In this document: positions 1 through 15,387 of the stretch, piece after piece
How positions within the stretch are numbered: the stretch's first letter is position 1
How the letters are laid out: every line of letters begins with the position of its first letter
NCBI GenBank assembly: GCA_003135575.1
Contig: PLCG01000094.1
Span: forward strand, 1,312-33,543
From: Nitrososphaerota archaeon
GTDB taxonomy: Archaea; Thermoproteota; Nitrososphaeria; Nitrososphaerales; Gagatemarchaeaceae
Length of the DNA: 32,232 nt
Direction: 5' to 3'
Program-made: the position numbers and the translations under genes
Notes under the pieces: generated by a model
Seen by the model: the letters and a program-made list of their open reading frames with translations, nothing else
Told to the model about the DNA's origin: nothing
Database searches by the model: none

Positions 1-66
1 GCAATGAACCCTGTGTATGGCGACAAGCACTGCTACTTCATTTTAGACAAAGCGTAGCGGAGCTTG
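1..66 (+). repeat. dispersed repeat copy A (core 3' half plus 3' module)
   Basis: GCAATGAACCCTGTGTATGGCGAC...CTACTTCATTTTAGACAAAGCGTAGCGGAGCTTG; cut by window start. Confidence 0.8.
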
Positions 67-123
67 ACGTTCGGACAAACGTATTAATGGAATGAGCGTG
101 TCGAACGTCAACGCGAAAGTAAC

Positions 124-1524
124 ATGGTCACCGGGGCTCGTCCAGGCGTTGGCCGCCTCGCAATCACGCTAATCGTAGCTCTTATCCTGATAATTGGAGG
201 CGTCGCTACAACTGCTTACTTGGCGACCCCAAGAAACGAAGCGACAAGCTCGACAAGCAGCGTTGCGACCAGGACCACCACAGGTCCCACCACGACGGCC
301 AATGACACGAGCGCGGTCGACCTGCAGGTTAGCACTCCGACGCCCTCCTTCCAGAACGGGAGCTGCGGCGCAGGCCCGGCATACGCGGACTCGTGGCTCC
401 TCTTCAAACACGACTCTGAGAGGACTGGCTTCTCGAGCTACAACTTCTCTACATCATCCGCCGGGAAGTTCCTGGGTCAGATCGCGTGGCGGAACAGTTC
501 AGGCTTCTCCGAGATGATAGCGACGCAGAGCGAGCTCTTCGTGGCTAGCTACTGGCTTTACGCCCTCAACCTCACCAACGGCAAGGGGCTCTGGACCGAG
601 ACGACGGGAGCGGGACCCGCCCCTCCAATCGCCGCCGACGGAAACATGGTCTACCTAGGCGAGAACGTTGGACCTTTAACCGCTTTCAACGCGACGACCG
701 GCGCGAACTCACAGATAGGGGACACGATGACGCTGGCCACGGTTGCCATCTGCGGAGACGTCGCCTATGTCAACTCCGGGCCGGGACGATTCCCGGGAGG
801 AGGACCCACTGACTCGCTTCAGGCCCTGAACCTCACCAGCGGACAGGATCTCTGGACCTTGAATTTGGCCTCGGGATTCTTCAGCAGCTACTACCCGACG
901 ACCGACGGTCACATGGTCTACATGCTCATGGACAACGGGACGGTCTTTGCTTACAGCGCGGCCTCGGGAACCCTCGTCTGGCGGCAGACGATTCCCCTCG
1001 TCCCCGTCACGACCGTATCCACAATCACTGGCTCCAACCGCAGCGTAACAGTGGTCGTAAATCCTAACGCAGCAGACGACTTCGTCGAAACCCCACCGCT
1101 GTCCGGGGGCAAGCTCTTCGTAACCACGACCTTCGGAATGATGTACGCCTTGAACGCGACAAACGGAGGCATGGTGTGGTCGACCGACCTCGGGACGAAA
1201 ATCACCGATGCAAGAGGTTCCTCAGCGGTGGCCTACGGGAAGATATTCGAGGGGACTGCAGCGGGCCTGCTGGCCATCTACGCCACCAACGGCTCGATCG
1301 TCTGGAAGGCCCCTCTAAATTCCACGGACACCGGTACGCCCACTGTCGTAGACGGGTACGTCTTCATCGCAGATTTCAGCGGGACTCTCTACCAGTTCAA
1401 CGCAAGCAATGGAGCGCTTCTTTGGAGCTACACGGGGTTGGGCGTGGGTTACGTCTCCGAGCCCATTGTGGCGGACGGGTTCGTAGCGGTGGACGGGAAT
1501 CACGGGGTCTTCGCCTTCCGTTAG
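124..1524 (+). CDS. PQQ-binding-like beta-propeller repeat protein with N-terminal TM/signal anchor
   Basis: ORF 466 aa; N-terminal hydrophobic segment (LAITLIVALILIIGGVATTAYL); repeated blade motifs such as ALNLTNGKGLWTETTG, AYSAASGTLVWRQ, ALNATNGGMVWSTD, AIYATNGSIVWKA, QFNASNGALLWSY. Confidence 0.88.
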   Translation: MVTGARPGVGRLAITLIVALILIIGGVATTAYLATPRNEATSSTSSVATRTTTGPTTTANDTSAVDLQVSTPTPSFQNGSCGAGPAYADSWLLFKHDSERTGFSSYNFSTSSAGKFLGQIAWRNSSGFSEMIATQSELFVASYWLYALNLTNGKGLWTETTGAGPAPPIAADGNMVYLGENVGPLTAFNATTGANSQIGDTMTLATVAICGDVAYVNSGPGRFPGGGPTDSLQALNLTSGQDLWTLNLASGFFSSYYPTTDGHMVYMLMDNGTVFAYSAASGTLVWRQTIPLVPVTTVSTITGSNRSVTVVVNPNAADDFVETPPLSGGKLFVTTTFGMMYALNATNGGMVWSTDLGTKITDARGSSAVAYGKIFEGTAAGLLAIYATNGSIVWKAPLNSTDTGTPTVVDGYVFIADFSGTLYQFNASNGALLWSYTGLGVGYVSEPIVADGFVAVDGNHGVFAFR

Positions 1525-1526
1525 TA

Positions 1527-1556
1527 ATTGCCTCGGCGGAGGCGCAATGAACCCGT
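1527..1556 (+). repeat. dispersed repeat copy B (core)
   Basis: ATTGCCTCGGCGGAGGCGCAATGAACCCGT. Confidence 0.8.
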
Positions 1557-1573
1557 ATCCACCAAAGCTAGGT

Positions 1574-1966
1574 CTAGTAACCTTCGACCTTCAGGTCAGG
1601 TATCCCAGAGAAATGCTTGCGGTTCCGAGTGAGCAGCGGTTGGTGGTTTTCTACAGCTATACCTGCGAGCATCGCGTCCTCCGGGTCCATCCTGGTCCCC
1701 TCCCTCGCCCTCTGCGCGTAGATCAACCCCGCCCTTATCGCGGACTCCGGGTCGAGCGGAAGCTGGGCGAGAGATTTGAGGACATCGAGGACCTTCTCAC
1801 GCTCTTCAGAAGACCTCACGCTGAGGCCGACGCCGACGTAGAGCTCGAATATCGAAGGCGCGCCGACCAGGACGGGCACGTTTCCGTCCGCAAGCTCCTT
1901 CGCCTTCCCCACGGCGCCGGCGTCGTTTCGCATCATGTCCACGAGAAAGGTAGTGTCGACCAGCAT
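1574..1966 (-). CDS. vapC: VapC-like PIN-domain toxin
   Basis: MLVDTTFLVDMMRND start, internal acidic residues (E in IFELYVG, D in DPEDAMLAGIA), C-terminal LLTRNRKHFSGIPDLKV typical of PIN. Confidence 0.88.
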   Translation of the reverse strand: MLVDTTFLVDMMRNDAGAVGKAKELADGNVPVLVGAPSIFELYVGVGLSVRSSEEREKVLDVLKSLAQLPLDPESAIRAGLIYAQRAREGTRMDPEDAMLAGIAVENHQPLLTRNRKHFSGIPDLKVEGY

Positions 1967-1970
1967 CTTC

Positions 1971-2204
1971 TCAGCCCAGCTTCTCGGCGGTGCGCTGGAG
2001 GCGCGTCGAGCTCTCCTCCCTCAGCTCCCTGACCCGCTCCTCCACCTGGGCCGCCTGCCGTGGAGACAGGATTCCAACCAGGTCCAAGACTCCCCGGCTC
2101 CGCGTCATCCGTTCGATGAGCTCGGTGAAGCTCTCCCCCGGCTTCTTCAGGGCCTTGAGCCTCTGGTACGCTTCGTCGGAGATTGCGATGTTCTTGGTGC
2201 CCAT
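1971..2204 (-). CDS. vapB: VapB-like antitoxin (DUF217-type)
   Basis: MGTKNIAISDEAYQRLKALKKPGESFTELIERM; immediately upstream of VapC on the same strand; ATG at 2204. Confidence 0.82.
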   Translation of the reverse strand: MGTKNIAISDEAYQRLKALKKPGESFTELIERMTRSRGVLDLVGILSPRQAAQVEERVRELREESSTRLQRTAEKLG

Positions 2205-2288
2205 ATCTCTCTGTGTGTGTCTGTGTGTGGGAATTAATAACGGTTGCTGCGCACACGCCGCAAACCATCTATAGATCATCCAGTCCAA

Positions 2289-2356
2289 GTTCAGCCCGTC
2301 CACTACCTATAGCTCAACGTGTGAGTGAATTGCCCCGGCGGAGGCGCGATGAACTC
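2289..2356 (+). repeat. dispersed repeat copy C (5' module plus core)
   Basis: TTCAGCCCGTCCACTACCTATAGCTCAACGTGTGAGTGAATTGCCCCGGCGGAGGCGCGATGAACTC. Confidence 0.9.
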
Positions 2357-2383
2357 TTTCTCGCGCAGCAATCCAAGTGGATT

Positions 2384-2399
2384 GTATATATTTATATAA
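2384..2399 (+). promoter_or_regulatory. archaeal TATA-like promoter for winged-helix gene 2422
   Basis: TATATATTTATATAAG about 25-35 nt upstream of ATG 2422; consistent with a leaderless transcript. Confidence 0.65.
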
Positions 2400-2421
2400 G
2401 TCAGTGAGGCCTCAAGCCGAG

Positions 2422-2691
2422 ATGGGTCGAAGAATGGAGGTACTCCACGAGCCGCGTCTGGATACCGTCTCGATGATAGAGAAGGCAATCCTGGACTCGG
2501 AGGAATACCCGACAAGGATGCAGCTCTGGAAGGGCCTACCCAGGAAGGTCCAGTACCAGACGTTCCAGAGGGTCCTACAATATCTCGAGGCATCGGAAAA
2601 GATAGCGTTCAACGACAGGAAGATCATCTACACCGGCGTTGCAAGCGACAAGCTGAGGAAGTTTCTCGAGTCGAGCGTAAGAATCGGCTAG
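2422..2691 (+). CDS. small winged-helix-like protein, paralogue of 26788-27075
   Basis: EYPTRMQLWKGLPRKVQYQTFQRVLQYLEASEKIAFNDRKIIY; TATA-like TATATATTTATATAAG just upstream; ATG at 2422. Confidence 0.75.
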   Translation: MGRRMEVLHEPRLDTVSMIEKAILDSEEYPTRMQLWKGLPRKVQYQTFQRVLQYLEASEKIAFNDRKIIYTGVASDKLRKFLESSVRIG

Positions 2692-2975
2692 TAGCCAAAA
2701 CGTCGCTCGTATTCCTTGTGCGACATCAAGTCGATGATCAGGACAGACCGCTGCACGATAGCATAGCAAGAACGGTGCCCCTCGGGGTGCGAGTAGCGGA
2801 ACAGGTTCTTCACGTCGAAGTTGCTCCGATAGAAGGAGGGTATGCGACTCTTTTGAATCTGCTCTCCTGCGAAGATGTTCGTCAGCAACACATCTCTCAT
2901 ATCGTCGATCCAGCGCGACTCTTTGCTTTCAGGATCGGAACTTCGCGATCTCGCCAGCTCCTCCGACAGCCGCAC
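2688..2975 (-). CDS. RelE-superfamily-like toxin, convergent with the winged-helix gene
   Basis: NLFRYSHPEGHRSCYAIVQRSVLIIDLMSHKEYERRFGY C-terminus; shares IDD, NLFR and HKEYERRF with ORF 26462-26791; start codon uncertain. Confidence 0.65.
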   Translation of the reverse strand: MRLSEELARSRSSDPESKESRWIDDMRDVLLTNIFAGEQIQKSRIPSFYRSNFDVKNLFRYSHPEGHRSCYAIVQRSVLIIDLMSHKEYERRFGY

Positions 2976-3074
2976 TTCTCTGGCAGGATTCCCGGCACGC
3001 TACGGGATAGACATCTCTTCTCTTATCAGGAGAGCGGTCGAGGCGGGTCGCAGCACGGCCTCAGGCTCTTGGGC

Positions 3075-3098
3075 GACCAGTTCAGCCCGTCCATTACC
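3075..3098 (+). repeat. dispersed repeat partial D (5' module only)
   Basis: GACCAGTTCAGCCCGTCCATTACC matches CCAGTTCAGCCCGTCCACTACC of copy J. Confidence 0.75.
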
Positions 3099-3146
3099 CC
3101 TCGGAGCGACCAAACTCTTTAGCGAGGGGTTCTTTCAGCCTCGTCA

Positions 3147-3368
3147 TTGACCTCTTCAGGACACCGGGGAAAAAAGAGGCCGGCCACCAAGGCGGAGGGA
3201 GAGTCCGACCACCGCACTGAGAGCGAGCTGAGCATCCACGAGGCGATGCTGGAAGCCCTCGTAGAAGAACTGGACGAGAAAGGAATCATCAGATACTCCG
3301 ATTGGGAGGCCAGAGCGAAGAGGAAACTAGCCGAGCTGGAAGAAGCAGTGGAAGACCGAGGACCCTAG
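3147..3368 (+). CDS. small hypothetical protein
   Basis: ORF 73 aa, TTG start; SIHEAMLEALVEELDEKGIIRYSDWEARAKRKLAELEEAVED looks like a real helical protein. Confidence 0.5.
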   Translation: MTSSGHRGKKRPATKAEGESDHRTESELSIHEAMLEALVEELDEKGIIRYSDWEARAKRKLAELEEAVEDRGP

Positions 3369-3448
3369 CACTAGGCACGGCGAATAGCTCCTCGGAATGT
3401 AGGCGACGCATTGCTTCTTTTATACCGCCAGCCCATACTGTGTCTGGC

Positions 3449-3586
3449 TTGGATGTCACGCAGGAGGAGTTAGAGAAGGCGATGAGGGAAATCGACAGGA
3501 AGCTGGCTCTTCCGGACGACAAGTTCGAAAAATACGCGAGTGACCTTCTTGAGCGCGCGGTCAAGGGATTACGAAGAAGCCGCTAA
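3449..3586 (+). CDS. small hypothetical (possible antitoxin-size) protein
   Basis: TTG start downstream of TATA-like TTCTTTTATACC; LDVTQEELEKAMREIDRKLALPDDKFEKYASDLLERAVKGLRRSR. Confidence 0.4.
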   Translation: MDVTQEELEKAMREIDRKLALPDDKFEKYASDLLERAVKGLRRSR

Positions 3587-3746
3587 GCTCCACCAGTTCC
3601 TCTCCAGGCTGGAGCCCGTCCAGGTGAGAAGAGCCATGCAGGCCTCTCGGCGAGCCCCTGATGAGCTCGGGAACGAGCTTGTCGTCCTTGCGGCGATCAT
3701 GGAGATTCGAGACCGCATAGGAGACCCTTCGCTCGAGGAGAAATGA
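3540..3746 (+). CDS. small hypothetical protein overlapping the preceding ORF
   Basis: DYEEAAKLHQFLSRLEPVQVRRAMQASRRAPDELGNELVVLAAIMEIRDRIGDPSLEEK; overlaps 3449-3586 in a different frame. Confidence 0.4.
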   Translation: MTFLSARSRDYEEAAKLHQFLSRLEPVQVRRAMQASRRAPDELGNELVVLAAIMEIRDRIGDPSLEEK

Positions 3747-3814
3747 AGCAATGAAGCTCGACCAATTAACATCTCAAGGTTAAGTAACAACCAGGTCGAC
3801 GCTTTCCAGTCACG

Positions 3815-4123
3815 ATGGCCGAGACAATCAAGATCGACGGCAGGGGCATGACGATCCAGGACGCGGTGAAGGAGATGTGGGACAGGATGCGGCCGCTCGA
3901 GGCGAAGGGCTTCCACCCGATCTCCGGCGTCGAGATAGTCGACGCAAAGAAAAACAAGGTCATCCAAGTCTTCGAGCTGACCGACCCACAGTTCCAAGCG
4001 CATCTCAAATCTGACAAGCCGGAAACGCCGCAACCGGCGGGTCGCAGGCTGGATGCGCGACCACACGCCCCCGAGAGGAAGGAGCATTACGCCTACCTCG
4101 CACGAATCAGCTTGGAACTCTGA
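3815..4123 (+). CDS. hypothetical protein
   Basis: ORF 102 aa; MAETIKIDGRGMTIQDAVKEMWDRMRPLEAKGFHPISGVEIVDAKKNKVIQVFEL. Confidence 0.5.
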   Translation: MAETIKIDGRGMTIQDAVKEMWDRMRPLEAKGFHPISGVEIVDAKKNKVIQVFELTDPQFQAHLKSDKPETPQPAGRRLDARPHAPERKEHYAYLARISLEL

Positions 4124-4127
4124 CAGT

Positions 4128-4192
4128 CAAACGTGTGTGTGAAATGCCACGGCGGAGGCGCAATGAACCCCATGCATGGTGACGTCCTGCAT
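4128..4192 (+). repeat. dispersed repeat copy E (partial 5' module plus core)
   Basis: ACGTGTGTGTGAAATGCCACGGCGGAGGCGCAATGAACCCCATGCATGGTGAC. Confidence 0.85.
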
Positions 4193-4249
4193 CCAACTGC
4201 TCGAATCCAAGAAAATGCTTAAGGGGCAAAACCTCCACAGACTTGTCCT

Positions 4250-4384
4250 ATGGAGCTCAAGCAGGAGCAGAGGCTTACCAAGAAGGAGTTCGAGAAACTC
4301 TCCGCAGAGATACGAGAACTGGTAGGGGACAAGCTCAAAGGGCACAAGGACGGAGACGCGGAGCGGCTCCTGTTCGAACGGTAA
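4250..4384 (+). CDS. small antitoxin-like protein upstream of truncated vapC
   Basis: Manual translation MELKQEQRLTKKEFEKLSAEIRELVGDKLKGHKDGDAERLLFER*; TATA-like sequence upstream (ATGCTTAAGG); adjacent to a PIN N-terminus. Confidence 0.45.
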   Translation: MELKQEQRLTKKEFEKLSAEIRELVGDKLKGHKDGDAERLLFER

Positions 4385-4393
4385 TCGAGCCCA

Positions 4394-4627
4394 TTGCAAA
4401 TTGTCGACACTGTCGTGCTGCTTGCGTTCTTAGACAAGGACAACCAGCGCTTCGAGAAGGAGAACGCCCTACTTCATTTTAGCAACCCAGCGGAACTGAT
4501 GCACTTGGAAACGGGTCATGCCAACATGGTAACTTTGATTACCATATGGAAAGCATTTCTACCAGTGGTCCCTCAATTGTCGACACTAACTAGGATGCCA
4601 CCCGAGTTGGGCGTTGTCGACAGCTAG
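4394..4627 (+). pseudogene. truncated VapC-like PIN gene interrupted by the dispersed-repeat 3' module
   Basis: MQIVDTVVLLAFLDKDNQRFEKENALL looks like a PIN N-terminus, then the reading frame enters CTACTTCATTTTAGCAACCCAGCGGAACT, which matches repeat copies A and K. Confidence 0.55.
4469..4498 (+). repeat. dispersed repeat partial F (3' module only)
   Basis: CTACTTCATTTTAGCAACCCAGCGGAACT matches CTACTTCATTTTAGCAAAGCGCAGCGGAGCT of copy K. Confidence 0.75.
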
Positions 4628-4638
4628 AATCACGCGTA

Positions 4639-4680
4639 TTTTATATACCCATACTACTATGGTAGGACTGAGGTAGTATG
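4639..4680 (+). promoter_or_regulatory. TATA-like box plus inverted-repeat operator candidate for RHH gene
   Basis: TTTTATATAC then CATACTAC(4650-4657)...GTAGTATG(4673-4680), with an additional GTAG at 4662. Confidence 0.55.
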
Positions 4681-4905
4681 AGAAAGATCTCAATCTCCTT
4701 GACTGATGAACTAGATGACGCTCTGGAGAGCATAGCGATAGCACAAGGGACCAACAAATCCAGAGTCATTGACAACTATCTGCGTGAACACAAGGTCGTG
4801 CAGCACTATCTGGAAATAATAAGATCGGAACCAAAGACGGGCGTGTTTGCCATGTCTCGCAAAATCGTCGACGACTTGAAGGAAAGAACGACGATTAGCG
4901 GATGA
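4678..4905 (+). CDS. ribbon-helix-helix (CopG/Arc-like) antitoxin or regulator
   Basis: MRKISISLTDELDDALESIAIAQGTNKSRVIDNYLREH, classic RHH pattern. Confidence 0.78.
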   Translation: MRKISISLTDELDDALESIAIAQGTNKSRVIDNYLREHKVVQHYLEIIRSEPKTGVFAMSRKIVDDLKERTTISG

Positions 4906-5353
4906 GCTTCTTCATAGGCGTCAGCCAACAGCCGAGCTCAGCGTCGTAATATCTGTCAGCATATTGCGCGTATCCAGAAAGTCTATACCACGAAACCACA
5001 TCATCAAGAGAATCCAACCGTATTTCACCGATGGCAAGCTGCTTCGCAAAATTTTCAGCAAGGCTCATGAGCTTTGTTCCGACGCCCGCGGCCTGGACGA
5101 GGGCATTGCTTCCTACCATGTCGACCACGATGTGGTCCAAGTTGATTCTCATCTCTATGATGCCAGCGATACGCACATCAATCTCGTAGAGAACCACCAG
5201 ATCGTTAGGAAGTAGACTCCACCGATGATAATCTCTGAGCACATATCTGTCCATTATCTCATTGCCCGTCCGAAACGCCTGGCCGATGTCTCCTTCACGC
5301 AAGAACCTGAAGCCCTCCGGCAGCGCTAGCCGCGACCTAACATCCCCAGACAA
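4895..5353 (-). CDS. GNAT-like N-acetyltransferase
   Basis: NALVQAAGVGTKLMSLAENFAKQLAIGEIRLDSLDDVVSWYRLSGYAQYADRYYD resembles the GNAT acetyl-CoA loop and C-terminal half. Confidence 0.65.
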   Translation of the reverse strand: MSGDVRSRLALPEGFRFLREGDIGQAFRTGNEIMDRYVLRDYHRWSLLPNDLVVLYEIDVRIAGIIEMRINLDHIVVDMVGSNALVQAAGVGTKLMSLAENFAKQLAIGEIRLDSLDDVVSWYRLSGYAQYADRYYDAELGCWLTPMKKLIR

Positions 5354-5425
5354 ACGGACTACGATATCTGACCAAATCCAGCTTAAGCTTGCTGGTCAGT
5401 TGAAAGTCAATCCTCAAGCCAAATT

Positions 5426-5472
5426 CGAATGAATGCTCCGGCGGAGGCGCAATGACCCTTGTGCATGGCGAC
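5426..5472 (+). repeat. dispersed repeat copy G (core)
   Basis: GAATGCTCCGGCGGAGGCGCAATGACCCTTGTGCATGGCGAC. Confidence 0.85.
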
Positions 5473-5577
5473 ATCAATCGTCTGCCTTCTTAGGAACTCT
5501 AGCGGAACTTAGAGTAAGTTCAACGCAGGAACCCACGCCTTAAATCCGAGAAGGGAAAATGTCATCTTAACACAATC

Positions 5578-6219
5578 ATGACGACCAACGTCGGTGGCTC
5601 AAGGCACCTCGGAATTCTTGCCTACGGCTCACTGATTACGTCTCCCGGACCGGAAATCGCGTCTGTGACGGTTGAGCGCATCAAGAATGTGGAGACCCCG
5701 TTCAAAGTGGAATTTGCCCGAAAGAGCAAGACAAGGGGATACGCTCCGACCTTGATCCCGGTCGACAGCGGGGGTGCCAGCGTCAAGGCAGAGATCATCG
5801 TCATAAAAGACCGCTTTGCCCCGGATTTGGCGGCGGACATGCTCTGGCGAAGAGAGACGCACCAAACCGGTCGGCAGAGATACCGTCGCCCCGATGTCAT
5901 CGACCTTAACGACGTCATCGTGGAAACCATTCATGACCTCTCAGGGGTTCGAACCGTGCTATATGCCAAAATCGGACAAAACATTGATCGGCTCTCAGCC
6001 AAGACGCTAGCTGAATTGGCCATCAATAGTGTGCATACGGCATCCCGTGGAAATGATGGAATCACGTACTTGATGGATGCCAAGAAGAGCGGGATTGAAA
6101 CTCCCCTGATGAGAAATTACGAGTCAGAAATAATGCGGCAGACTAGAACCAAGACCCTAGGAGGTGCCGTGAACCAGCTCAGGTCTAGAATGCGTAGTGC
6201 CCCGGCGGAGGCGCAATGA
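5578..6219 (+). CDS. hypothetical protein, possible gamma-glutamylcyclotransferase-like fold
   Basis: ORF 213 aa; N-terminal GILAYGSLI resembles the YGSL motif of GGCT-fold proteins (weak). Confidence 0.6.
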   Translation: MTTNVGGSRHLGILAYGSLITSPGPEIASVTVERIKNVETPFKVEFARKSKTRGYAPTLIPVDSGGASVKAEIIVIKDRFAPDLAADMLWRRETHQTGRQRYRRPDVIDLNDVIVETIHDLSGVRTVLYAKIGQNIDRLSAKTLAELAINSVHTASRGNDGITYLMDAKKSGIETPLMRNYESEIMRQTRTKTLGGAVNQLRSRMRSAPAEAQ

Positions 6220-6224
6220 ACCCC
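6196..6224 (+). repeat. dispersed repeat copy H (core)
   Basis: GTGCCCCGGCGGAGGCGCAATGAACCCC, overlapping the stop codon of ORF 5578-6219. Confidence 0.85.
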
Positions 6225-6248
6225 AAGAAAGACGAGCGGAGAGCAAGG

Positions 6249-6284
6249 CTTTAAAATGACGCTTTCCCATCCATCTAATGGGAA
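6249..6284 (+). promoter_or_regulatory. TATA-like box plus inverted repeat upstream of AbrB-type antitoxin
   Basis: CTTTAAAATG then TTCCCAT-ccatcta-ATGGGAA (7-bp perfect arms). Confidence 0.5.
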
Positions 6285-6290
6285 TAACTC

Positions 6291-6530
6291 TTGGAGACTG
6301 TGGTCGATGAGCGGGGAAGGGTTCTCATCCCTCAAGAACTGAGGGAAGAGGCTGGTCTTGAAGAGGGTACGGTCGTAAGGGTGGAGAAAGGCAAGGGGAA
6401 GACAATCCAGATCGCTCCTTTGAAGCGAGGCGCGCGTCTCGCGTGGAAGGACCTTGACGGCATCAAACCGCACAGGACGGGCAAGCCCGAATGGCCGACA
6501 CCAGAAGAAATCAAGGGCATCTGGGAATAG
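6291..6530 (+). CDS. AbrB/SpoVT-type antitoxin
   Basis: TTG start; METVVDERGRVLIPQELREEAGLEEGTVVRVEKGKGKTIQIAPL. Confidence 0.85.
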   Translation: METVVDERGRVLIPQELREEAGLEEGTVVRVEKGKGKTIQIAPLKRGARLAWKDLDGIKPHRTGKPEWPTPEEIKGIWE

Positions 6531-6928
6531 ACACCAACGTCTTGGTCGCGTACCTCGACGCCGGGCATCCTTCGCACAAGGAGACCGAGTTCCTGGCTCA
6601 GAGAGGAGTGGCCCTCAACCCCACGGTGATACACGAGGCCTATCACACCCTTGTGTTCAAGATGAAATGGGCGGCAGAGGAAGCTTCAAGGACGCTGGTC
6701 GCGGCTTGCACGGACGAGGACAACCTCTTCATCAACCAAACTCTCAGGAGGGTCCGCGCAGGATTGAAGATAGGGGCAGAGCACCATGAGCTCGGTGGAA
6801 GGGATGCCCTGATCCTCGGAAACCTTCTCATTGGAAAGGTCGGCGAACTCATCACGTTCGACAAGGAACTTCTTGCACTCGGAAAGATCAAGTTCGGCAG
6901 GTCTGCCATCACAATCCGGCGACCCTAG
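6491..6928 (+). CDS. vapC: VapC-like PIN-domain toxin
   Basis: GIDTNVLVAYLDAGHPSHKETEFLAQRGVALNPTVIHEAYHTLV ... ELGGRDALILGNLLIGKVGELITFDKELLALGKI; overlaps the antitoxin ORF (true start may be downstream). Confidence 0.85.
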   Translation: MADTRRNQGHLGIDTNVLVAYLDAGHPSHKETEFLAQRGVALNPTVIHEAYHTLVFKMKWAAEEASRTLVAACTDEDNLFINQTLRRVRAGLKIGAEHHELGGRDALILGNLLIGKVGELITFDKELLALGKIKFGRSAITIRRP

Positions 6929-6933
6929 GTGAC

Positions 6934-7014
6934 TAATTCAGCCTGTCCTCCATCTGTGGCTCAACGTGAGTGAAACGCCCCGGCGGAGGCGCGATGAACC
7001 CTTATGCGTGGCCA
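6934..7014 (+). repeat. dispersed repeat copy I (5' module plus core)
   Basis: AATTCAGCCTGTCCTCCATCTGTGGCTCAACGTGAGTGAAACGCCCCGGCGGAGGCGCGATGAACCCTTATGCGTGG. Confidence 0.9.
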
Positions 7015-7020
7015 CACCAC

Positions 7021-7284
7021 CTAACGATAAACTCCATGCGTCCCAACGTCTAGGAATACAACAGTCCGATTCTCAAACCTGACCGTATACAATACCCTGA
7101 ATTGCTTGCCTATCTCGTACGAGAAAACACCCTTCCATCGAGCCACTTTTCTCAGCCCGAGCCTCGTGGGGTCTTCGCTCTCTAGGAGATGGCCCATTGC
7201 TTCATCGACCCGAGCCCTGACCTCCTGGCCTAGAGATTGGTAGCTACGGTGAAATGTATTAGTTATCTCGGCCTTCCAAACCAA
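7021..7284 (-). CDS. relE: RelE-family toxin
   Basis: MVWKAEITNTFHRSYQSLGQEVRARVDEAMGHLLESEDPTRLGLRKVARWKGVFSYEIGKQFRVLYTVRFENRTVVFLDVGTH. Confidence 0.82.
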   Translation of the reverse strand: MVWKAEITNTFHRSYQSLGQEVRARVDEAMGHLLESEDPTRLGLRKVARWKGVFSYEIGKQFRVLYTVRFENRTVVFLDVGTHGVYR

Positions 7285-7294
7285 GGCGCTTCAT

Positions 7295-7531
7295 TCAGTC
7301 TTTGTGGAGTGCCGCAATCATTTCATCTGCGTTCTTGAATCGTCTGACCTTCCCGCTGCGTGCTTCCTTTAGGCTTCTCTCGAGCCTGCCTCTGGCGGCA
7401 CCATCGAGCATGAGGTCAACCTGGCTAGCAATCTCTTCCTTTGTCAAGCCTTCTCTCACGGCCTCCTCCATGAACTCGACTAATTCCCGCATCGTCTTGC
7501 GGTCGGTGACTATCTGCTCCGTCCTCGCCAT
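7295..7531 (-). CDS. RelB-like antitoxin
   Basis: MARTEQIVTDRKTMRELVEFMEEAVREGLTKEEIASQVDLMLDGAARGRLERSLKEARSGKVRRFKNADEMIAALHKD; 10 nt upstream of RelE on the same strand; ATG at 7531. Confidence 0.72.
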   Translation of the reverse strand: MARTEQIVTDRKTMRELVEFMEEAVREGLTKEEIASQVDLMLDGAARGRLERSLKEARSGKVRRFKNADEMIAALHKD

Positions 7532-7703: not shown

Positions 7704-7790
7704 AACCAGTTCAGCCCGTCCACTACCTATAGCTCAACGTATCTTATGAAATGCCCCGGCGGAGGCGCAATGAACCCTGTACATGGCGAC
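7704..7790 (+). repeat. dispersed repeat copy J (5' module plus core)
   Basis: CCAGTTCAGCCCGTCCACTACCTATAGCTCAACGTATCTTATGAAATGCCCCGGCGGAGGCGCAATGAACCCTGTACATGGCGAC. Confidence 0.92.
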
Positions 7791-7839
7791 AGCCAGTACT
7801 CATAAACAGCCTACATTGTCACAGTGAACTTCGGCAGGA

Positions 7840-9786
7840 TCATGGACCATCGAGAGTCGGGGATGAGCCCAACCCGATCCTTCTCAAAAGATCCGTCCAG
7901 CGCGGGTCGGTTCGGAGCGGTTCGAAGATGAAGTCGAGGTGGATGGTCCCCATGTAAGGGGAGTGCTCCTCGAAGCCCTTCTCAAGCCAATCGAACGCCT
8001 TGTCATGCTCCCCCAACATGGTGTAGACTCCTGCAATCGCTGGCGCAGCCTTTTTGCTGGCTTTCCGCATCTCGAGCAACTCGGCCAACACCTTCCGAAT
8101 ATCCTCAACGCGTCCCGCTTTCGCATACGAGTACGCGAGGTCGTTCAATGATGACGGATTTGAGCGCTCAATCTCGATCGATTTCTCGATCATCGGTATG
8201 CCCTTTTCGAACATTCCCTTTTGCACATACGACAGCCCCAGGTTTCCCAGCGGGAAAGGTGAGTTGGGGTTGATTTCTAGCGCCCTCTCATACAGCTCGA
8301 TCGCATCGTCATATTGCCCCGAATAGAGGTAGATGGTCCCGAGGATTTGACAGGTCACATTTGAGAAAGGATCCAGTTCTAGGGCTTTCTTGGCCTCTTT
8401 CGCTGCCTCTTCTCGCCGCCCGAGTGACAACAGGCCCTGGGCACGAAAGGCGTGAGCATGAGCAAGGTTGGGCTCCAGCTCAACGGCCTGTCTCAATTCG
8501 TCGTCTGCCTCGGAGTATTTCCACTCGTACATCCGGAGGATCCTTCCCATGGCCACGTGCCCTTCAGCGAGTTCGTCGTCGAGTTCCAAGGCCCTCACCG
8601 CGTAGGATTTCGCCTTCACGAAGGCGTCATCTGAGGGCATCAGCTCGAAAAAGCCGAGGATGATCCAGGCATGGGCGAGGTCCGCGTAACATTGAGCAAA
8701 GTCCGGGGCAAGCGCCACTGCCTTCTCGTAGAAGCCGATCCCCCTCAGCAGGGACTCCTTGTTGAGCTTGGTGGAGGCAAATTCCCCCTTGAGCCAGAGC
8801 GTGTAGGCCTCGAGGTTCTGGGTCGGTCGGTCCAACCGTCCCACCGACGTCGAGAATTCAAGCCGAAGCGCCTCAGCAACCTTCTCCGCTATGTCCGTCT
8901 GCACGGCGAAGATGTCATCCAGCTGCCTGTCGTACGTCTCCGACCACACGTGAGCCTCGTTGGAGGTATTGATCAGCTGGACTGTGACCCTCACCTTGTT
9001 CCCCGCCTTCCTTACGCTCCCCTCGAGGACGGAACCGACTCGCAGCTCGTCCGCGATTATGGCGACCTGCTTCGCCCCTCCCTTGTACCGGAGCACAGAG
9101 GTCCTAGCGATGACCTCCAACCCGTTCACGCGTGAGAGCACTGTTATCAGCTCCTCGGTCAGTCCGTCGGCGAAATACTCGTCATTCGCATCTGGGCTGA
9201 TGTTGTCAAACGGGAGGACCGCCAACCTTTCCCTTCGCGACTGGCCGCCTCTCGCGGGCTCGTCCCAGGGCATGGCGATCTTGTAGACCTCTAACGGCAT
9301 GCTGACGTTCTTCAGCGTCTTGCTACCGAGGCTGACTAGCGGCAGATCAGTCTTGTTCTGCACGTGGTCATAGACCTGACGCGAAAGGCAGACGCCCCCG
9401 ACCTCCGCGAGGGGCTCGATCCTGGATGCGACGTTCACGGCATCGCCTGAAATGTCGCCGTCGGATTCCACTATGTCGCCGAGGTGGATGCCCACCCTGA
9501 GATGGATCTTCTCCTCGTCAGTCTGAGAGAGGTTGTAGTCTCTGGCGGCTCTCTGAATCGCATACGCACACCTGACTGCCGCCAGCGCGCTCGGAAACTC
9601 GACCAAGAACGCGTCCCCGATCGTCTTGACCTCCCTCCCGCCGTGCCTGTCGAAGATTGGCCTCAGCAGCTTCCTCTGTTCGTTGACAAGCGCAAGCGAG
9701 AGTGCTTCGTCCCTTTGGGACAAGGCGGTATAGCCGACCATGTCGGTGAACATGATAGCTGCGAGTCTCCGCTGCCCCTTGGACAA
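7840..9786 (-). CDS. class III adenylate/guanylate cyclase - TolB-like - TPR protein
   Basis: RRLAAIMFTDMVGYTALSQRDE...KTIGDAFLVEFPSALAAV...GDAVNVASRIEPLA cyclase domain; LAVLPFDNISPDANDEYFADGLTEELI; TPRs in the C-terminal half. Confidence 0.93.
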   Translation of the reverse strand: MSKGQRRLAAIMFTDMVGYTALSQRDEALSLALVNEQRKLLRPIFDRHGGREVKTIGDAFLVEFPSALAAVRCAYAIQRAARDYNLSQTDEEKIHLRVGIHLGDIVESDGDISGDAVNVASRIEPLAEVGGVCLSRQVYDHVQNKTDLPLVSLGSKTLKNVSMPLEVYKIAMPWDEPARGGQSRRERLAVLPFDNISPDANDEYFADGLTEELITVLSRVNGLEVIARTSVLRYKGGAKQVAIIADELRVGSVLEGSVRKAGNKVRVTVQLINTSNEAHVWSETYDRQLDDIFAVQTDIAEKVAEALRLEFSTSVGRLDRPTQNLEAYTLWLKGEFASTKLNKESLLRGIGFYEKAVALAPDFAQCYADLAHAWIILGFFELMPSDDAFVKAKSYAVRALELDDELAEGHVAMGRILRMYEWKYSEADDELRQAVELEPNLAHAHAFRAQGLLSLGRREEAAKEAKKALELDPFSNVTCQILGTIYLYSGQYDDAIELYERALEINPNSPFPLGNLGLSYVQKGMFEKGIPMIEKSIEIERSNPSSLNDLAYSYAKAGRVEDIRKVLAELLEMRKASKKAAPAIAGVYTMLGEHDKAFDWLEKGFEEHSPYMGTIHLDFIFEPLRTDPRWTDLLRRIGLGSSPTLDGP

Positions 9787-9949
9787 GCTGATGCCTCGTC
9801 TCTGCCGACGAGTGATAAAGCCATTATGGGCGCCAACGCATGATTCATCTCAAGGAACGCGTAGTCTTGCACGCAAGGCGGACCGCTTCACCGACCGAGG
9901 ACGGCCTCGAAGCGTTATCTACCCGGCTGACCGCAATTGCATTCTCGCC

Positions 9950-10258
9950 TTGAGATACGTCCTGATCACCAGCCGGTCGAACCACTGGGACAGGGTGGGC
10001 AACGTCTCCTCGTATCCATACGAGATGCTCCGTGGCGGCGTGATGAACCCCGAGAGGCTGGCGGACAACACGCCGGCGGTCTTCGTCAAGGTGGACAAGG
10101 AGATGAGGACACCGGAGAAAGCATGGGAAGGCGAGGTGGTCAAGATAACAAGAAGGGCGGACAAGGTCTGGCTACAGTTCAGGCTCGGCCTGGTGACCAC
10201 GTGTCCTGAGAACTTTGCAGGGTCCCCGGACGGCTGGTATACCGACGAAACGGCGTAG
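9950..10258 (+). CDS. hypothetical protein, TTG start
   Basis: MRYVLITSRSNHWDRVGNVSSYPYEMLRGGVMNPERLADNTPAVFVKVDKEMRTPEKAWEGEVVKITRRADKVWLQFRL; the upstream part of ORF 9740-10258 overlaps the divergent cyclase gene and is probably not coding. Confidence 0.5.
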   Translation: MRYVLITSRSNHWDRVGNVSSYPYEMLRGGVMNPERLADNTPAVFVKVDKEMRTPEKAWEGEVVKITRRADKVWLQFRLGLVTTCPENFAGSPDGWYTDETA

Positions 10259-10264
10259 ACCACA

Positions 10265-10337
10265 TCAGGTGGGGGCGCAATGAACTCTGTGTGGCGAATG
10301 TCCTTCTACTTCATTTTAGCAAAGCGCAGCGGAGCTG
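10265..10337 (+). repeat. dispersed repeat copy K (degenerate core plus 3' module)
   Basis: CAGGTGGGGGCGCAATGAACTCTGTGTGGCGA...CTACTTCATTTTAGCAAAGCGCAGCGGAGCTG. Confidence 0.85.
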
Positions 10338-10348
10338 AGGAAGTTTGT

Positions 10349-10609
10349 TCAAGGCCCGTAAGCGCCGCTGCGATGGTCGATCTTGTCCACGAGCACGAGG
10401 CCCTCATTGCCAAGGACCTCGTAGAGAACCCTGTAGTCTCCGACCCTGATCCGATAGACCCCTTCCCTTCCTTGGAGCTTTATCGCACCGGGAGGGAACG
10501 GATCGTCAACTAGTTCCTCGAGTCTCGCCACAATCCTTGACCTGGTTGACTGCTCGAGCAATGCAAGTTCTCGATTGGCTCTTTTCGAGAGCCTTACTTC
10601 GTACTTCAA
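10349..10609 (-). CDS. relE: RelE-family toxin
   Basis: MKYEVRLSKRANRELALLEQSTRSRIVARLEELVDDPFPPGAIKLQGREGVYRIRVGDYRVLYEVLGNEGLVLVDKIDHR. Confidence 0.93.
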   Translation of the reverse strand: MKYEVRLSKRANRELALLEQSTRSRIVARLEELVDDPFPPGAIKLQGREGVYRIRVGDYRVLYEVLGNEGLVLVDKIDHRSGAYGP

Positions 10610-10791
10610 GAGCGCTTCTTCTTGACTTCGGAAAGTGCCACGGTACTGCCGTGAGCGAGGTCTTGGCGAGCCTCATCTATCGCTTCTGAGTCGTCCTTCG
10701 TGAGCACCGAATCGAACGCCTTCTCCAGGGATGAGACCCTCTTCTTAATCTGGTCTATCTCCTGCTTCAATTCGGCCTCGCCCGCCTTCAT
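10606..10791 (-). CDS. antitoxin-like protein paired with RelE
   Basis: MKAGEAELKQEIDQIKKRVSSLEKAFDSVLTKDDSEAIDEARQDLAHGSTVALSEVKKKRS; 4-nt overlap with RelE; ATG at 10791. Confidence 0.75.
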   Translation of the reverse strand: MKAGEAELKQEIDQIKKRVSSLEKAFDSVLTKDDSEAIDEARQDLAHGSTVALSEVKKKRS

Positions 10792-10845
10792 GTCGTCTTC
10801 ACAAGGCAGAAGGGTGTGGACGGATATAAGCGTGCACAGCGACCG

Positions 10846-10922
10846 CATCCGTCCACTACCTACAGCTCAACGTGTGAGTGAAATGCCCCGGCGTAGGCGC
10901 AATGAACCCTTATGCAGGGCGA
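10846..10922 (+). repeat. dispersed repeat copy L (5' module plus core)
   Basis: CATCCGTCCACTACCTACAGCTCAACGTGTGAGTGAAATGCCCCGGCGTAGGCGCAATGAACCCTTATGCAGGGCGA. Confidence 0.92.
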
Positions 10923-11043
10923 AATCATCCTCTTCCCCAGCAAGAATCGTTTGTGGAAGAGTAGCGATTGTCCTTCAAGTCCGATTTGTATTTGATTGCG
11001 GAAAACCTAAATATTCGAACGTTCCTTCAATCATAGAAGATTC

Positions 11044-13305
11044 ATGTCGAAGATCTTCGACAAAACTTCAATCACCGCAATTTCGATTAGTTTACTATTT
11101 CTCATCTCCTCCATATCTGCTCCTATTGTTGTGGCTTCAACCAACTCAAAACCGGCGCCTCTTGCATCGACTCCGCTCTCCCAGCTCGAGGCGAACTGGG
11201 CGGCCCCCGACGGAAATCAGTTCAACCATAACTATAGTCCGCAACACCAGCTCAACAGTTCGAATGCCCAATACCTCGGTCTAAACTGGCTGTTCCCATT
11301 ACCCACCCATCCGACGGCGCTGATATCTGTCGCAGGAGGACTTGGGGTTGACACTGCCCCGCTGATCGTCAACGGGACGATTTATTTCGTCACACAGTTC
11401 GACCAGGTCTTCGCGCTCAACGCTGCGAACGGGAACGTGCTATGGACCGATGTAATACCCGTGCTCCCCAACAGCACCGCAGGAAAGGGCACCGGCTCAA
11501 TCTCCCTCCATCTCCACAATGGCAACGTGCAGTTCAGCACGGCGCTCTTCAACCACACACCGACGTTCTGGGTCGGAGCAGACGACATGAAGGTCTACGC
11601 CATCAACGCCCTCAGCGGCAAGTACGAGCTGAACTTCTCAGTCTTCGACGGCGTCAATACCGTTGCCGGAACGCATCTAGGCGCCCAGTATACAGGGGTC
11701 GGAGTAGCAAACATTCTAGTCGATCAGAACAAGGGTATTCTGATTTCATCTGTCGTCAGCGCCTCAAGCCCGAATACGGGTCGGTGCTTCTACCGCGGTT
11801 GGGACTTGAATGCTAGCCCACCAAAGATGATTTGGGAGGCTTACTGTACCCCTCCTCAGCCGAACTCCAGTGTGGCGGTCGATCCGACCTGGACAATAAA
11901 GATGGTGAACGGCCTGAAGGGGGCGCAAATTTTCTACCCCGGACCGCAATACCACAATGGCGGTCCGATACCCGCGTCCGCAGTGGTGGACCTGAAGAAG
12001 CTCTCGCCAGCGCAGCTCAATTCGACCCTCTACGATGACTGGGGAAGCATCAACCAAACTCCAGCCTGCAAGGCAGCGACTGGCGGCGTATCCACAGGAT
12101 CAACGGCTGCTGGTTGGGGCGCCCCTTGGGTGCTTGGAACAGGCCCGACTGCGGGTTACGCGTTCGTCAACACTAACAACCCGGACCCCTACAACAGTGC
12201 GTGCACCCTGGGCCCAGAACTCTGGTCTGCCTCCGTCTTGGCGCTGAATGAAACCAACGGACAATGGATCTGGGCCTTCCAGACCTCTGCCCACGACCAA
12301 TGGGACCTCGACTGCTCCTGGTGGCAAGGACTTGGCAACGAGACACTAAGCGCCGGTGGCGGCAGTACACAGGTGCTCTGGAAGCTCTGCAAGAACGGCT
12401 ACCTTTACGAGCTGAACGCGCAGACCGGCGCTATGATATGGGCCTACACCCCACCAATCACCTCGATTGCTAGGTGTCCCAAGTACTGCGACATGCTCGA
12501 CCCGCTCAACAGGACGCAGATGACGGAGCCCTACTTCGCGCCGGACAGGACCGCGGCGGGCGTTGGCACGCTCATGTATCCCGGCGCTGCGGTAGGCGAG
12601 TCTGAAGCCTCGTACAGCCCGGCCCTAAACTACATATTCTTCGCGGACGAGATTCTCCCCGTCCTTACCTACTATGTGCCGATTAACTCGACCAACTACA
12701 AGACGAACTCCGGGGCGCTCTACCTCGGTCAAAACGGTGGGCCGCTCCTTGGAGGGGGTCCTAACGCAATAAACAACGCCACCATCTCCGCAGTCAACGC
12801 GGCGACCGGACAGCTGGTCTGGTCGTTCGTTGTCCACACCCAAGGCTACCGGGGCGGCGTATCCAACAGCGGGAACATAGTCTTCCTCACCCTGTCGTCA
12901 GGGGACCTGATGATGCTCGATGCCTCGACCGGCAAGCTGATCAAAGACTACTACATCGGCGGCCCGCTCAACGTCCTTCCGTCGATAGGGGCGACATCCA
13001 GCGGACAGGTGGAAGTGATCGTCCCGATCACCGCCGGCATTGTCACCTGGGGTACAGGAGTTCCAGGTGACATCGTCGCACTCACCCTCCAGAACGTTCC
13101 AACTGGGGGCGCGACCAACACTGTAACTTCAACCTCGACCGTCTCTGGTGCAGGTCAAGTTTCTACGGCAACCACCACGGTCACGGCGGCAGGAACCTCA
13201 GGAGCCGATTCGACGACTCTATATGGAATCGCGGCGGTCGCCGTGATCTTCATCATCGCCACGGGCTTCCTTGCCATGAGGGGCAGAAGAAGGCCCGCCC
13301 TCTGA
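11044..13305 (+). CDS. secreted/membrane-anchored PQQ-dependent dehydrogenase-like beta-propeller protein
   Basis: 753 aa; signal-like N-terminus; blades ALNAANGNVLWTD, ALNETNGQWIWAFQTSAHDQWDLDC, ELNAQTGAMIWAY, AVNAATGQLVWSF; Thr/Ser-rich linker and C-terminal TM plus RGRRR. Confidence 0.9.
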   Translation: MSKIFDKTSITAISISLLFLISSISAPIVVASTNSKPAPLASTPLSQLEANWAAPDGNQFNHNYSPQHQLNSSNAQYLGLNWLFPLPTHPTALISVAGGLGVDTAPLIVNGTIYFVTQFDQVFALNAANGNVLWTDVIPVLPNSTAGKGTGSISLHLHNGNVQFSTALFNHTPTFWVGADDMKVYAINALSGKYELNFSVFDGVNTVAGTHLGAQYTGVGVANILVDQNKGILISSVVSASSPNTGRCFYRGWDLNASPPKMIWEAYCTPPQPNSSVAVDPTWTIKMVNGLKGAQIFYPGPQYHNGGPIPASAVVDLKKLSPAQLNSTLYDDWGSINQTPACKAATGGVSTGSTAAGWGAPWVLGTGPTAGYAFVNTNNPDPYNSACTLGPELWSASVLALNETNGQWIWAFQTSAHDQWDLDCSWWQGLGNETLSAGGGSTQVLWKLCKNGYLYELNAQTGAMIWAYTPPITSIARCPKYCDMLDPLNRTQMTEPYFAPDRTAAGVGTLMYPGAAVGESEASYSPALNYIFFADEILPVLTYYVPINSTNYKTNSGALYLGQNGGPLLGGGPNAINNATISAVNAATGQLVWSFVVHTQGYRGGVSNSGNIVFLTLSSGDLMMLDASTGKLIKDYYIGGPLNVLPSIGATSSGQVEVIVPITAGIVTWGTGVPGDIVALTLQNVPTGGATNTVTSTSTVSGAGQVSTATTTVTAAGTSGADSTTLYGIAAVAVIFIIATGFLAMRGRRRPAL

Positions 13306-13370
13306 TCTTTCTCAACCTATCCCCTTATTTCCAGCGGGGCTAGTCAAGGCGGCTCATACGATCAGGCCGC

Positions 13371-13427
13371 TTGACCCGTGAATGGATGCCCCGGCGGAGG
13401 CGCTATGAACCCTTATGCATGGCGAAA
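13371..13427 (+). repeat. dispersed repeat copy M (core)
   Basis: GGATGCCCCGGCGGAGGCGCTATGAACCCTTATGCATGGCGAA. Confidence 0.9.
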
Positions 13428-13449
13428 ACTCCGCGGTTGAGTCCAAGAC

Positions 13450-14403
13450 TTGAAGCTCACTTACGCGTCAAGATTCGAGATCTTGCCCACGGCACCCTTC
13501 GACTTTCGGCTCACCGTGAAGAGACCCGCGGGCTGGAGCCTCTTCAACGCCGGCGAGATCTACGAGGACGGGACCCTCTGGACTGCGACGCGGCTACTCG
13601 AGACTGTCATAGGGCTGAAGCTAAAGTTCCTAGGGACGGTCGAGAACCCGCGGGTGCTGGCCACCGTCTTCACGCAGAGGCCGCTTCCCGCCCAAAAAAA
13701 GCGGGAGATGAAAAGTGCGCTGGAGATCCTCACCGGTGCCGACCAGGACCTGAGAGAGTTCTACGCTATGGGGAAGCGGGACGAGATCCTGAGGCACACC
13801 GTCGAGGACCTCTACGGCATGCACGACACCCAGACGGCCTACCTCTTCAACTCGGTCGTCCTGAGCATCTGCCTGCAGATGGCGAGGATGGACAGGAGCC
13901 TGAAGATGATGGCCGCAGTCACCAAGCACTACGGGGACAGGGTGCAGTTCGACGGGAAGGAGATTGTCGTGGAGCCGTCAGCCGAGAGGATAACGAAGCT
14001 AAAGCCTGCAGAGTTCGCTAGAAAGTGCAACCTTGGCTACCGCGCCAAGTACCTCGTGGCCGCGGCCAAGATGGTCGCCCGCGGCTTCCCGGGCACCCTC
14101 GAGATCCTAAAGATGCAGCCGGAGGAGGCGAAGGAGAGGCTCATGGAGCTCCCGGGCGTCGGGGACTACGCGGCGGACATCATCAACCCGCACGGCGGCT
14201 TCCCCATCGACGCCTGGTCGGTCGACGTCTTCGGGAAGCTCTTCTTCGGGAAGGAGCCCGAGGACAGGAGGGACGCCATCGAGGAGGTCAAGCAGGAGGG
14301 CGTCCGCCGCTGGGGCCAATTCGCATGGCTAGCCTTCTTCTACGTGGCGCAGGACCTTGAGAACCTCTCGAAGAGGCTCGGGACCCAGCTCAGGCTGCAG
14401 TAA
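13450..14403 (+). CDS. HhH-GPD DNA glycosylase (OGG1-like)
   Basis: LMELPGVGDYAADIINPHGGFPIDAWSVDVFGKLFF: HhH motif followed by the catalytic-Asp region (PIDAWSVDV). Confidence 0.85.
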   Translation: MKLTYASRFEILPTAPFDFRLTVKRPAGWSLFNAGEIYEDGTLWTATRLLETVIGLKLKFLGTVENPRVLATVFTQRPLPAQKKREMKSALEILTGADQDLREFYAMGKRDEILRHTVEDLYGMHDTQTAYLFNSVVLSICLQMARMDRSLKMMAAVTKHYGDRVQFDGKEIVVEPSAERITKLKPAEFARKCNLGYRAKYLVAAAKMVARGFPGTLEILKMQPEEAKERLMELPGVGDYAADIINPHGGFPIDAWSVDVFGKLFFGKEPEDRRDAIEEVKQEGVRRWGQFAWLAFFYVAQDLENLSKRLGTQLRLQ

Positions 14404-14426
14404 GAAGAGCCTTCGCCGGTGGTAGC

Positions 14427-14681
14427 CTACCCTAGCAGGTAGTCAGCCAGGCCATCGGGGTCTATCACGTCGATCTCCCTTACGGTCTCCTCCACTTCAG
14501 AGAGGGGCACGCCAATCTCCTTTGTAATGGTCTTGCCAGAAGCGTCCTTGTACGTGATCACGGTCTTCTGCCTGTCCGTCGGCGACTCCGCCATGGAGAC
14601 GTACTCCAGGCCCTTGCTCTTGAACGAGTCCTTGACGTCCCTCATGAGTGACGACATCTCGACGCGCTCGCCTGTGGGCAT
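14427..14681 (-). CDS. hypothetical small protein
   Basis: 84 aa ORF; MPTGERVEMSSLMRDVKDSFKSKGLEYVSMAESPTDRQKTVITYKDASGKTITKEIGVPLSEVEETVREIDVIDPDGLADYLLG. Confidence 0.6.
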   Translation of the reverse strand: MPTGERVEMSSLMRDVKDSFKSKGLEYVSMAESPTDRQKTVITYKDASGKTITKEIGVPLSEVEETVREIDVIDPDGLADYLLG

Positions 14682-14742
14682 CTTTCACGCCGACCCTATT
14701 AACCCTCGTCTTGCGAGTCGAAGTCCTTCGAGGTCATCGACT

Positions 14743-14771
14743 CTCTGCGGAGGCGGAATAAACCCTTGTGC
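14743..14771 (+). repeat. dispersed repeat copy N (degenerate core)
   Basis: TCTGCGGAGGCGGAATAAACCCTTGTGCGG. Confidence 0.6.
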
Positions 14772-14805
14772 GGCTTAAATACCAGCACAAGGCCCAACCT
14801 TCCCG

Positions 14806-15171
14806 ATGCAGGCGCAAGAGGAGACGGAGGCAGAGGATTGGGCGCGCACAGAGGAGCGCCGCAGAAGGATCTACGAGGGACTATGGCGCGCCGACGAGGA
14901 GCGGGTCAGAAGGCAGCGCGAGAGAGACCCTTACAATAACCGCCGAAGACAGGGACGCGACGACCATCGCAATCCGTTTGACATTAGCGCTGTCAAAGAG
15001 ATCCCAAGGGCCACCCAGGTCTTGGGCGTCAGGGTCGGTGCGACCGAGGTCGAGATCAAGGCAGCTTACAAGAGGATGGCCATGGTGTGGCATCCGGACA
15101 GGCCGGGGGGATCGGCAGAAAAGATGAAAGACATCAATGACGCGAGAGAGATCCTGCTGCAGGGGCTTTGA
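14806..15171 (+). CDS. J-domain protein (C-terminal J domain)
   Basis: TQVLGVRVGATEVEIKAAYKRMAMVWHPDRPGGSAEKMKDINDAREIL, with HPD motif. Confidence 0.85.
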   Translation: MQAQEETEAEDWARTEERRRRIYEGLWRADEERVRRQRERDPYNNRRRQGRDDHRNPFDISAVKEIPRATQVLGVRVGATEVEIKAAYKRMAMVWHPDRPGGSAEKMKDINDAREILLQGL

Positions 15172-15209
15172 GCCCATCCGAAACCAAGCGAATGTGACCG
15201 GGTTGTTGC

Positions 15210-15260
15210 GCTATCTGTAGCTCAACGTGTGAGTGAAATGCCCCGGCGGAGGCGCAATGT
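15210..15260 (+). repeat. dispersed repeat copy O (5' module plus core, truncated)
   Basis: CTATCTGTAGCTCAACGTGTGAGTGAAATGCCCCGGCGGAGGCGCAATG. Confidence 0.9.
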
Positions 15261-15387
15261 TCTTCTTCTGAATGCCCGCCAAACATTCTCTATGCCCTCG
15301 CCTCGCCGCAGGGAATACAAGAGGACATATTCGACTCGACCTGTCGGGAAGTCTCCCAAGGCATCATCGAAGTCAATCTCGGTCGTC

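Follow-up and report, generated by a model that had tools for sequence, protein, structure and literature searches.

To our knowledge, prokaryotes have one well-established means of stockpiling single-gene cassettes in ordered arrays, the integron. Integron cassettes are small, many of them carry toxin-antitoxin genes, they lie between recombination sites of one orientation, they are shared and reordered between species, and the array has one fixed end, intI-attI. SCC elements integrate in tandem at the conserved 3' end of a housekeeping gene, which is restored after insertion. Casposons and CRISPR form polarised arrays that grow at a fixed end. Integrons have been reported in archaea (PMC9668308), where tandem integration at one site is also known (PMC6563490). 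In tandem elements with tRNA-targeting tyrosine integrases (PMC6563490, PMC8371274), the target is the 3' end of an RNA gene that is restored after insertion, the elements are bounded by short direct repeats, and growth is stepwise and in one orientation.

The array described here was recognised in a 32,232-nucleotide stretch (hereafter the window; contig C51, bases 1312-33543) of a Nitrososphaerota genome of 2.34 Mb in 117 contigs. Below, this genome is called own, other compared genomes G, contigs C and inspected loci L, each with a number. Like an integron, the array consists of small cassettes, many of them with toxin-antitoxin genes, which are shared and reordered between species and extend from one fixed end. 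Moreover, its sites stand at cassette boundaries in one orientation: among the 36 contigs inspected, 190 of 195 sites followed their contig's majority orientation (i.e., 97% uniformity), and homology between genomes ended at sites more often than by chance. Yet we rejected integron membership, as none of the 46 family genomes contained an IntI over the TIGR02249 cut-off, and the R' box of attC (GTTRRRY) occurred within 90 nt 3' of the core at 2 of 46 own sites, against a random rate of 5.7%. The attC motif RYYYAAC matched at 11 of the 46 own sites because the arm of the repeat is derived from 23S rRNA. In addition, and again unlike in integrons, the array's genes lie on both strands, and the 23S rRNA gene takes the place of intI-attI as its fixed end.

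The comparison with the other systems is similarly mixed. As in the tandem integrase elements, the 3' target is restored, and both the 3' end of the 23S gene and the processing stem are found intact beside the array; however, the units here measure ~1 kb, hold one to a few genes, number in the dozens and have no integrase of their own, nor was an integrase consistently tied to them, and the processing stem of the 23S rRNA serves as target. SCC elements differ in their large serine recombinase (PF00239), which had no match in the own genome or in other members of its genus. Casposons and CRISPR differ in that Cas1 is missing in several array carriers and that the units here are full genes; in an unsystematic look, we also noticed no terminal inverted repeats in the arrays.

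A repeat made of the 23S rRNA 3' end and half of its processing stem

A first-pass annotation of the window had placed about 13 copies of a repeat in its first 15.3 kb, all on the + strand, and had seen no full copy beyond. Our search for the repeat core (GGCGGAGGCGCAATGAACCC) recovered all 13 where they had been placed, on the + strand, the first being cut by the window edge (Table 1), and detected none with up to four mismatches from 15.3 kb to the window end. A degenerate core-like remnant was seen at ~22500, past the array's last full site. The core consensus matched three times in the window and never in 100 shuffles. As for the flanking modules that the annotation had described, a 5' module does accompany several cores, but it is full-length at three only (2337, 7758 and 10890), being shortened at 6982 and 15245 and standing alone at ~3078; a 3' module was confirmed at two places, 32-65 and 10299-10333, and a piece of it lies near 4469. 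In the own genome as a whole, where the annotation had proposed a copy-number check, we counted 47 core matches with up to three mismatches, while a reversed-pattern control gave none. These copies are clustered on several contigs, with one orientation per contig, and the sole exception is an opposite-strand copy outside the window (C51:38462).

Table 1. Repeat sites, site fragments and cassettes in the window
Feature	Position	Strand	Remarks
Site 1, right end of core (GCAATGAACCC)	1-11	+	full site starts at C51:1298, just left of the window
Site core, 0 mismatches	1535-1554	+
PIN-domain toxin (1574-1966) and upstream partner ORF (1933-2268)	1574-2268	-	between sites 1535 and 2337
Site: 23S 3'-end arm (2288-2336) and core (2337-2356, 2 mismatches)	2288-2356	+
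Lone 23S 3'-end arm fragment, without core	3078-3099	+
Site core, 0 mismatches	4151-4170	+
Site core, 2 mismatches	5440-5459	+
Cassette, 213-aa ORF (5578-6219)	5508-6224	+	88% identity to G002 L137:3101-3816; homology stops at core
Site core, 0 mismatches	6204-6223	+
MazE-like antitoxin / PIN toxin cassette	6262-6948	+	89% identity to G007 L046:4744-5430
Site: degenerate 23S arm and core (6982-7001, 1 mismatch)	6935-7001	+
Site: full 23S 3'-end arm (7708-7757) and core (7758-7777, 0 mismatches)	7708-7777	+
Cassette segment	9897-10279	+	85% identity to G001 L122:3779-4161; homology stops inside core after GGCGCA
Site core, 3 mismatches, then 3' module (10299-10333)	10268-10287	+
ParE toxin (10349-10609) and upstream partner ORF (10606-10848)	10349-10848	-
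Site: 23S arm and core (10890-10909, 1 mismatch)	10849-10909	+
Site core, 1 mismatch	13393-13412	+
Site core, 3 mismatches	14746-14765	+
J-domain protein cassette	14770-15251	+	83% identity to G002 L137:2555-3039
Distal left half-site: 23S-like arm and GGCGGAGGCGCAATG, then unrelated TTCTTC	15204-15259	+	core start 15245

We identified the 5' module of the repeat as the 3' end of the 23S rRNA gene, and the core as the 3' half of the bulge-helix-bulge (BHB) stem for pre-23S processing, which lies immediately downstream of that gene; this origin is not visible from the window by itself. Covariance matches to the Rfam archaeal large-subunit rRNA (LSU_rRNA_archaea, RF02540) ended inside the repeat, at the full model end, in L088, L084, L034 and L021 (position 2987), and the same full-end match was obtained at L012, L141 and L127; the core starts ~8 nt past the matched 23S end. 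Within the window, no known RNA family matched at the Rfam gathering threshold. The own 23S gene is cut off by the end of contig C25, and its 3' end resumes at the edge of contig C101, directly followed by same-strand array sites. The 5' strand of the stem, GCCGTGCATAGGGTTCGCGCAAGCATCCGCCGGGG, lies in the own 16S-23S spacer and pairs with the core in the archaeal bulge-helix-bulge shape, i.e., a 4-bp GCGC helix between two 3-nt bulges, AAU and AAG; the joined own halves fold with a z-score of -9.6.

In six genomes, sequence and fold alike revealed complementary halves flanking the 23S gene, whose pairing leaves two 3-nt bulges around a 4-bp central helix. The energies of the stem duplexes lay between -48.7 and -61.1 kcal/mol, and paired base changes distinguished the genomes (e.g., GCCG/CGGC to GCCA/TGGC). 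Since the 5' half occurs exactly once in each of six genomes, against 1 to 44 occurrences of the 3' half when up to two mismatches are allowed, it is the 3' half alone that has multiplied. A stem known as a single-copy RNA-processing signal is thus found here with its 3' half multiplied as a cassette boundary. The annotation's alternative of an anonymous non-autonomous element lost its support with this identification of the repeat and with the start of the arrays at the 23S gene.

Location, spread and contents of the arrays

At least six genomes have an array that starts from the 23S gene and follows its direction (own C101, G070 C22, G017 C1, G010 C4, G007 C57 and G001 C51); the one on G070 C22, for example, comprises nine sites over 27 kb, and the one on G010 C4 ten sites over 31 kb. 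Site spacing had a median of 1.1 kb across the 36 inspected contigs. Some small arrays lie away from the 23S gene, on G017 C1 at 1.029 Mb (opposite strand) and on C12; a small serine resolvase gene was observed ~2 kb from the ectopic mini-array of G017 (L128, G017:C1:1026769-1030922). G013, whose complete genome is a single contig, lacks an array and carries the native site plus one 3-mismatch match elsewhere; its flanks are too rearranged relative to array-bearing genomes to display an array between conserved neighbours.

Core copies are confined to one family, Gagatemarchaeaceae (Thaumarchaeota group I.1c), with the core being present in 36 of 46 family genomes versus 1 of 254 other genomes of the order. 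Exact core matches in named genomes came almost only from Thaumarchaeota/Nitrososphaerales MAGs, including Candidatus Gagatemarchaeum stordalenia, which places the own genome in Gagatemarchaeaceae as well. Of note, one exact match falls on a contig binned as Acidobacteria (L061, QIAL01000482.1), shows no arm similarity and is probably due to chance or misbinning. There were no exact matches in IMG/VR that would indicate viral carriers, and ARAGORN, with bacterial settings, predicted no tRNA in the array loci. Across genomes, the number of sites tracked genome size (rho 0.78).

The window cassettes, with genes on both strands, encode PIN toxins, a MazE-like antitoxin, ParE, a ribbon-helix-helix protein, a GNAT acetyltransferase, a J-domain protein, PQQ beta-propeller proteins and a cyclase-TPR protein; the PIN, MazE-like and ParE products agree with the annotation's view that many of the intervening genes are of toxin-antitoxin type. 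Families common to the arrays of several genomes, as read from the sequences by eye, include AbrB-type, RelE-, HicA- and Doc-like proteins, and a HerA-like ATPase recurs in a few arrays. Among 2318 array ORFs, no gene was common to all arrays.

Several further features of these loci were observed. Just past the last site of the window, at 15229-21108, lies a defence-like block with Vsr, a MutH-like restriction enzyme, a C5 methyltransferase, an ATPase with weak AbiO/Nhi matches and a PLD-type DrmC-like protein. On the - strand, a pair of related cyclase-TPR genes (7840-9786, with a weak Pycsar-cyclase match, and 28390-30333) share common repeats 20.5 kb apart, and a third family member is located at L013:1208-3148. 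Downstream of the 3' arm, by eye, the motif TTCGGACAAAACTATTAA recurs in the right arms of L067, L055, L054 and L009, possibly as a common promoter for the next cassette.

Cassette exchange, its boundaries and the mechanisms that could account for it

We examined cassette sharing by an all-against-all comparison of array loci. Nineteen of the 100 usable homology ends had a site no more than 100 nt away in both genomes, where 1.0 was expected and 1000 randomisations yielded 5 at most. In the window, the cassettes at 5508-6224 and 14770-15251, which match neighbouring cassettes of G002, stand 8.5 kb apart and in reversed order. Cassettes have thus been exchanged and reordered between species, with the exchanged segments ending at sites. 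Together with the single site orientation and the variable copy number, this supports the cassette-array reading of the first-pass annotation; the contrary patterns that it had named, randomly oriented copies unrelated to cassette boundaries and copies fixed at orthologous loci without cassette turnover, were not what we found.

Up to the core, left arms consist of cassette-specific sequence, and right flanks differ; shared cassettes have less precise boundaries on the left than on the right. At the 6204 site, of the 60 bases on either side of the core, the shared cassette retained 54 upstream and 17 downstream, and at 10268 shared sequence broke off within the core itself. One-arm searches, which are independent of the core, returned half-sites that break at GGCGCA/AT, e.g., at 15245 and L012:6374. 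Given that half-sites and shared cassettes break there, the exchange point appears to lie near GGCGCA/AT, which is also the BHB bulge.

We consider it probable that these loci are integron-like cassette arrays, anchored at the 23S 3' end and built by site-specific recombination. Circular or linear cassettes carrying a copy of the site would enter at the 23S-flanking copy or at existing array copies, through site-specific DNA recombination with exchange near GGCGCA/ATGAACCC and a recombinase acting in trans. Each insertion would add one more same-orientation site and regenerate an intact 23S processing signal beside the gene, so that ribosome production would be unharmed.

Among tyrosine recombinase, serine recombinase, Cas1 and reverse transcriptase candidates, no enzyme tied to the arrays was found, which speaks against this reading, as do the small arrays away from the 23S gene and the lesser precision of left cassette boundaries. 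Tyrosine recombinases (PF00589) had no match in G008, G014, G016 and G017, each with at least six sites and the last 100% complete; their number correlated moderately with site number (rho 0.44, versus 0.78 for genome size). As those adjacent to arrays belong to unrelated subgroups rather than one clade, and several carriers have none, we rejected them as the array enzyme. Serine recombinases, Cas1 and reverse transcriptases were likewise rejected, each being missing in strong array carriers. Separately, by-eye reading suggested tRNA-like sequence just upstream of two array-adjacent integrases (C86 and G007 C25).

The arms tend to resemble the same genome's own 23S 3' end, arrays can begin at that end, and casposons insert in tandem in Thaumarchaeota (PMC6563490), all of which would also fit a Cas1/casposase-like or other staggered-cut enzyme that would duplicate the site when inserting DNA at the 23S 3' flank, just as CRISPR adaptation duplicates the repeat. 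The arms would then be host sequence rather than carried attachment sites. However, Cas1 is absent from the array carriers G001 (44 sites), G033 and G070, and the cassette common to the own genome and G002 keeps its non-23S left arm up to the core, indicating that the left arm travels with the cassette; we therefore regard such target-site duplication as unlikely.

We also think it quite unlikely that the arrays arose passively, through illegitimate insertion together with homologous recombination among repeats of rRNA origin, with no dedicated enzyme and with cassettes selected for their genes only. The absence of a recombinase from our searches, the ~80 nt of homology that full arms and core provide and the correlation of site number with genome size would all suit this scenario, but the exchange boundaries lie at the ~14-20 bp core even where neither arm is related, conservation is far higher in the core than in the arms, and orientation is nearly uniform.

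The coincidence of the exchange point with the BHB bulge, where the splicing endonuclease would be expected to cut, and the capacity of internal sites to pair with the single 5' half to a similar degree as the native site does (median -50.4 kcal/mol) bring to mind cassettes joined by BHB cutting and ligation of RNA and returned to DNA by reverse transcription; this is hardly credible, as RVT_1 reverse transcriptases are lacking in the own genome, G017, G033, G029, G008 and G070, and the arrays have no repeated 5' half. Similarly implausible is a dispersed element of the SINE or MITE kind, or a family of regulatory RNAs or terminators, without a cassette role: the repeat is short, structured and of transcribed-sequence origin, with a weak match to the C/D-box sRNA sR10 over the core (L084:427-481, over the 23S 3' flank; 24.5 bits, below the gathering score), yet ~96% of copies lie in same-strand clusters, cassette boundaries coincide with sites, copies are restricted to one family and, as the annotation had rightly argued against terminators, site orientation is independent of gene strand.

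A possible separate cassette system

With site-specific recombination at a 23S-anchored array as the preferred reading, there is a real chance that this is a separate system from the known site-specific cassette arrays. A review of archaeal tyrosine recombinases (PMC8371274) does not mention rRNA targets, a genome paper on Gagatemarchaeaceae (PMC10640624) does not mention cassettes, integrons or 23S, and our literature search found no report of a 23S-anchored cassette array. More tentatively, we propose that Gagatemarchaeaceae may have evolved a cassette-capture platform of their own, independent of integrons, with the 3' half of the pre-23S stem as attachment site and a trans-acting recombinase of an as yet unrecognised type.

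If this is true, a concrete hunt for the recombinase becomes possible, and a puzzle arises as to how 23S maturation chooses the correct 3' partner among dozens of equivalent downstream 3' halves. Such a system, independent and docked on an rRNA processing signal in abundant acid-soil archaea, would represent a second solution to the stockpiling of cassettes, and would help explain gene gain in Gagatemarchaeaceae genomes, whose size is tracked by the number of sites.
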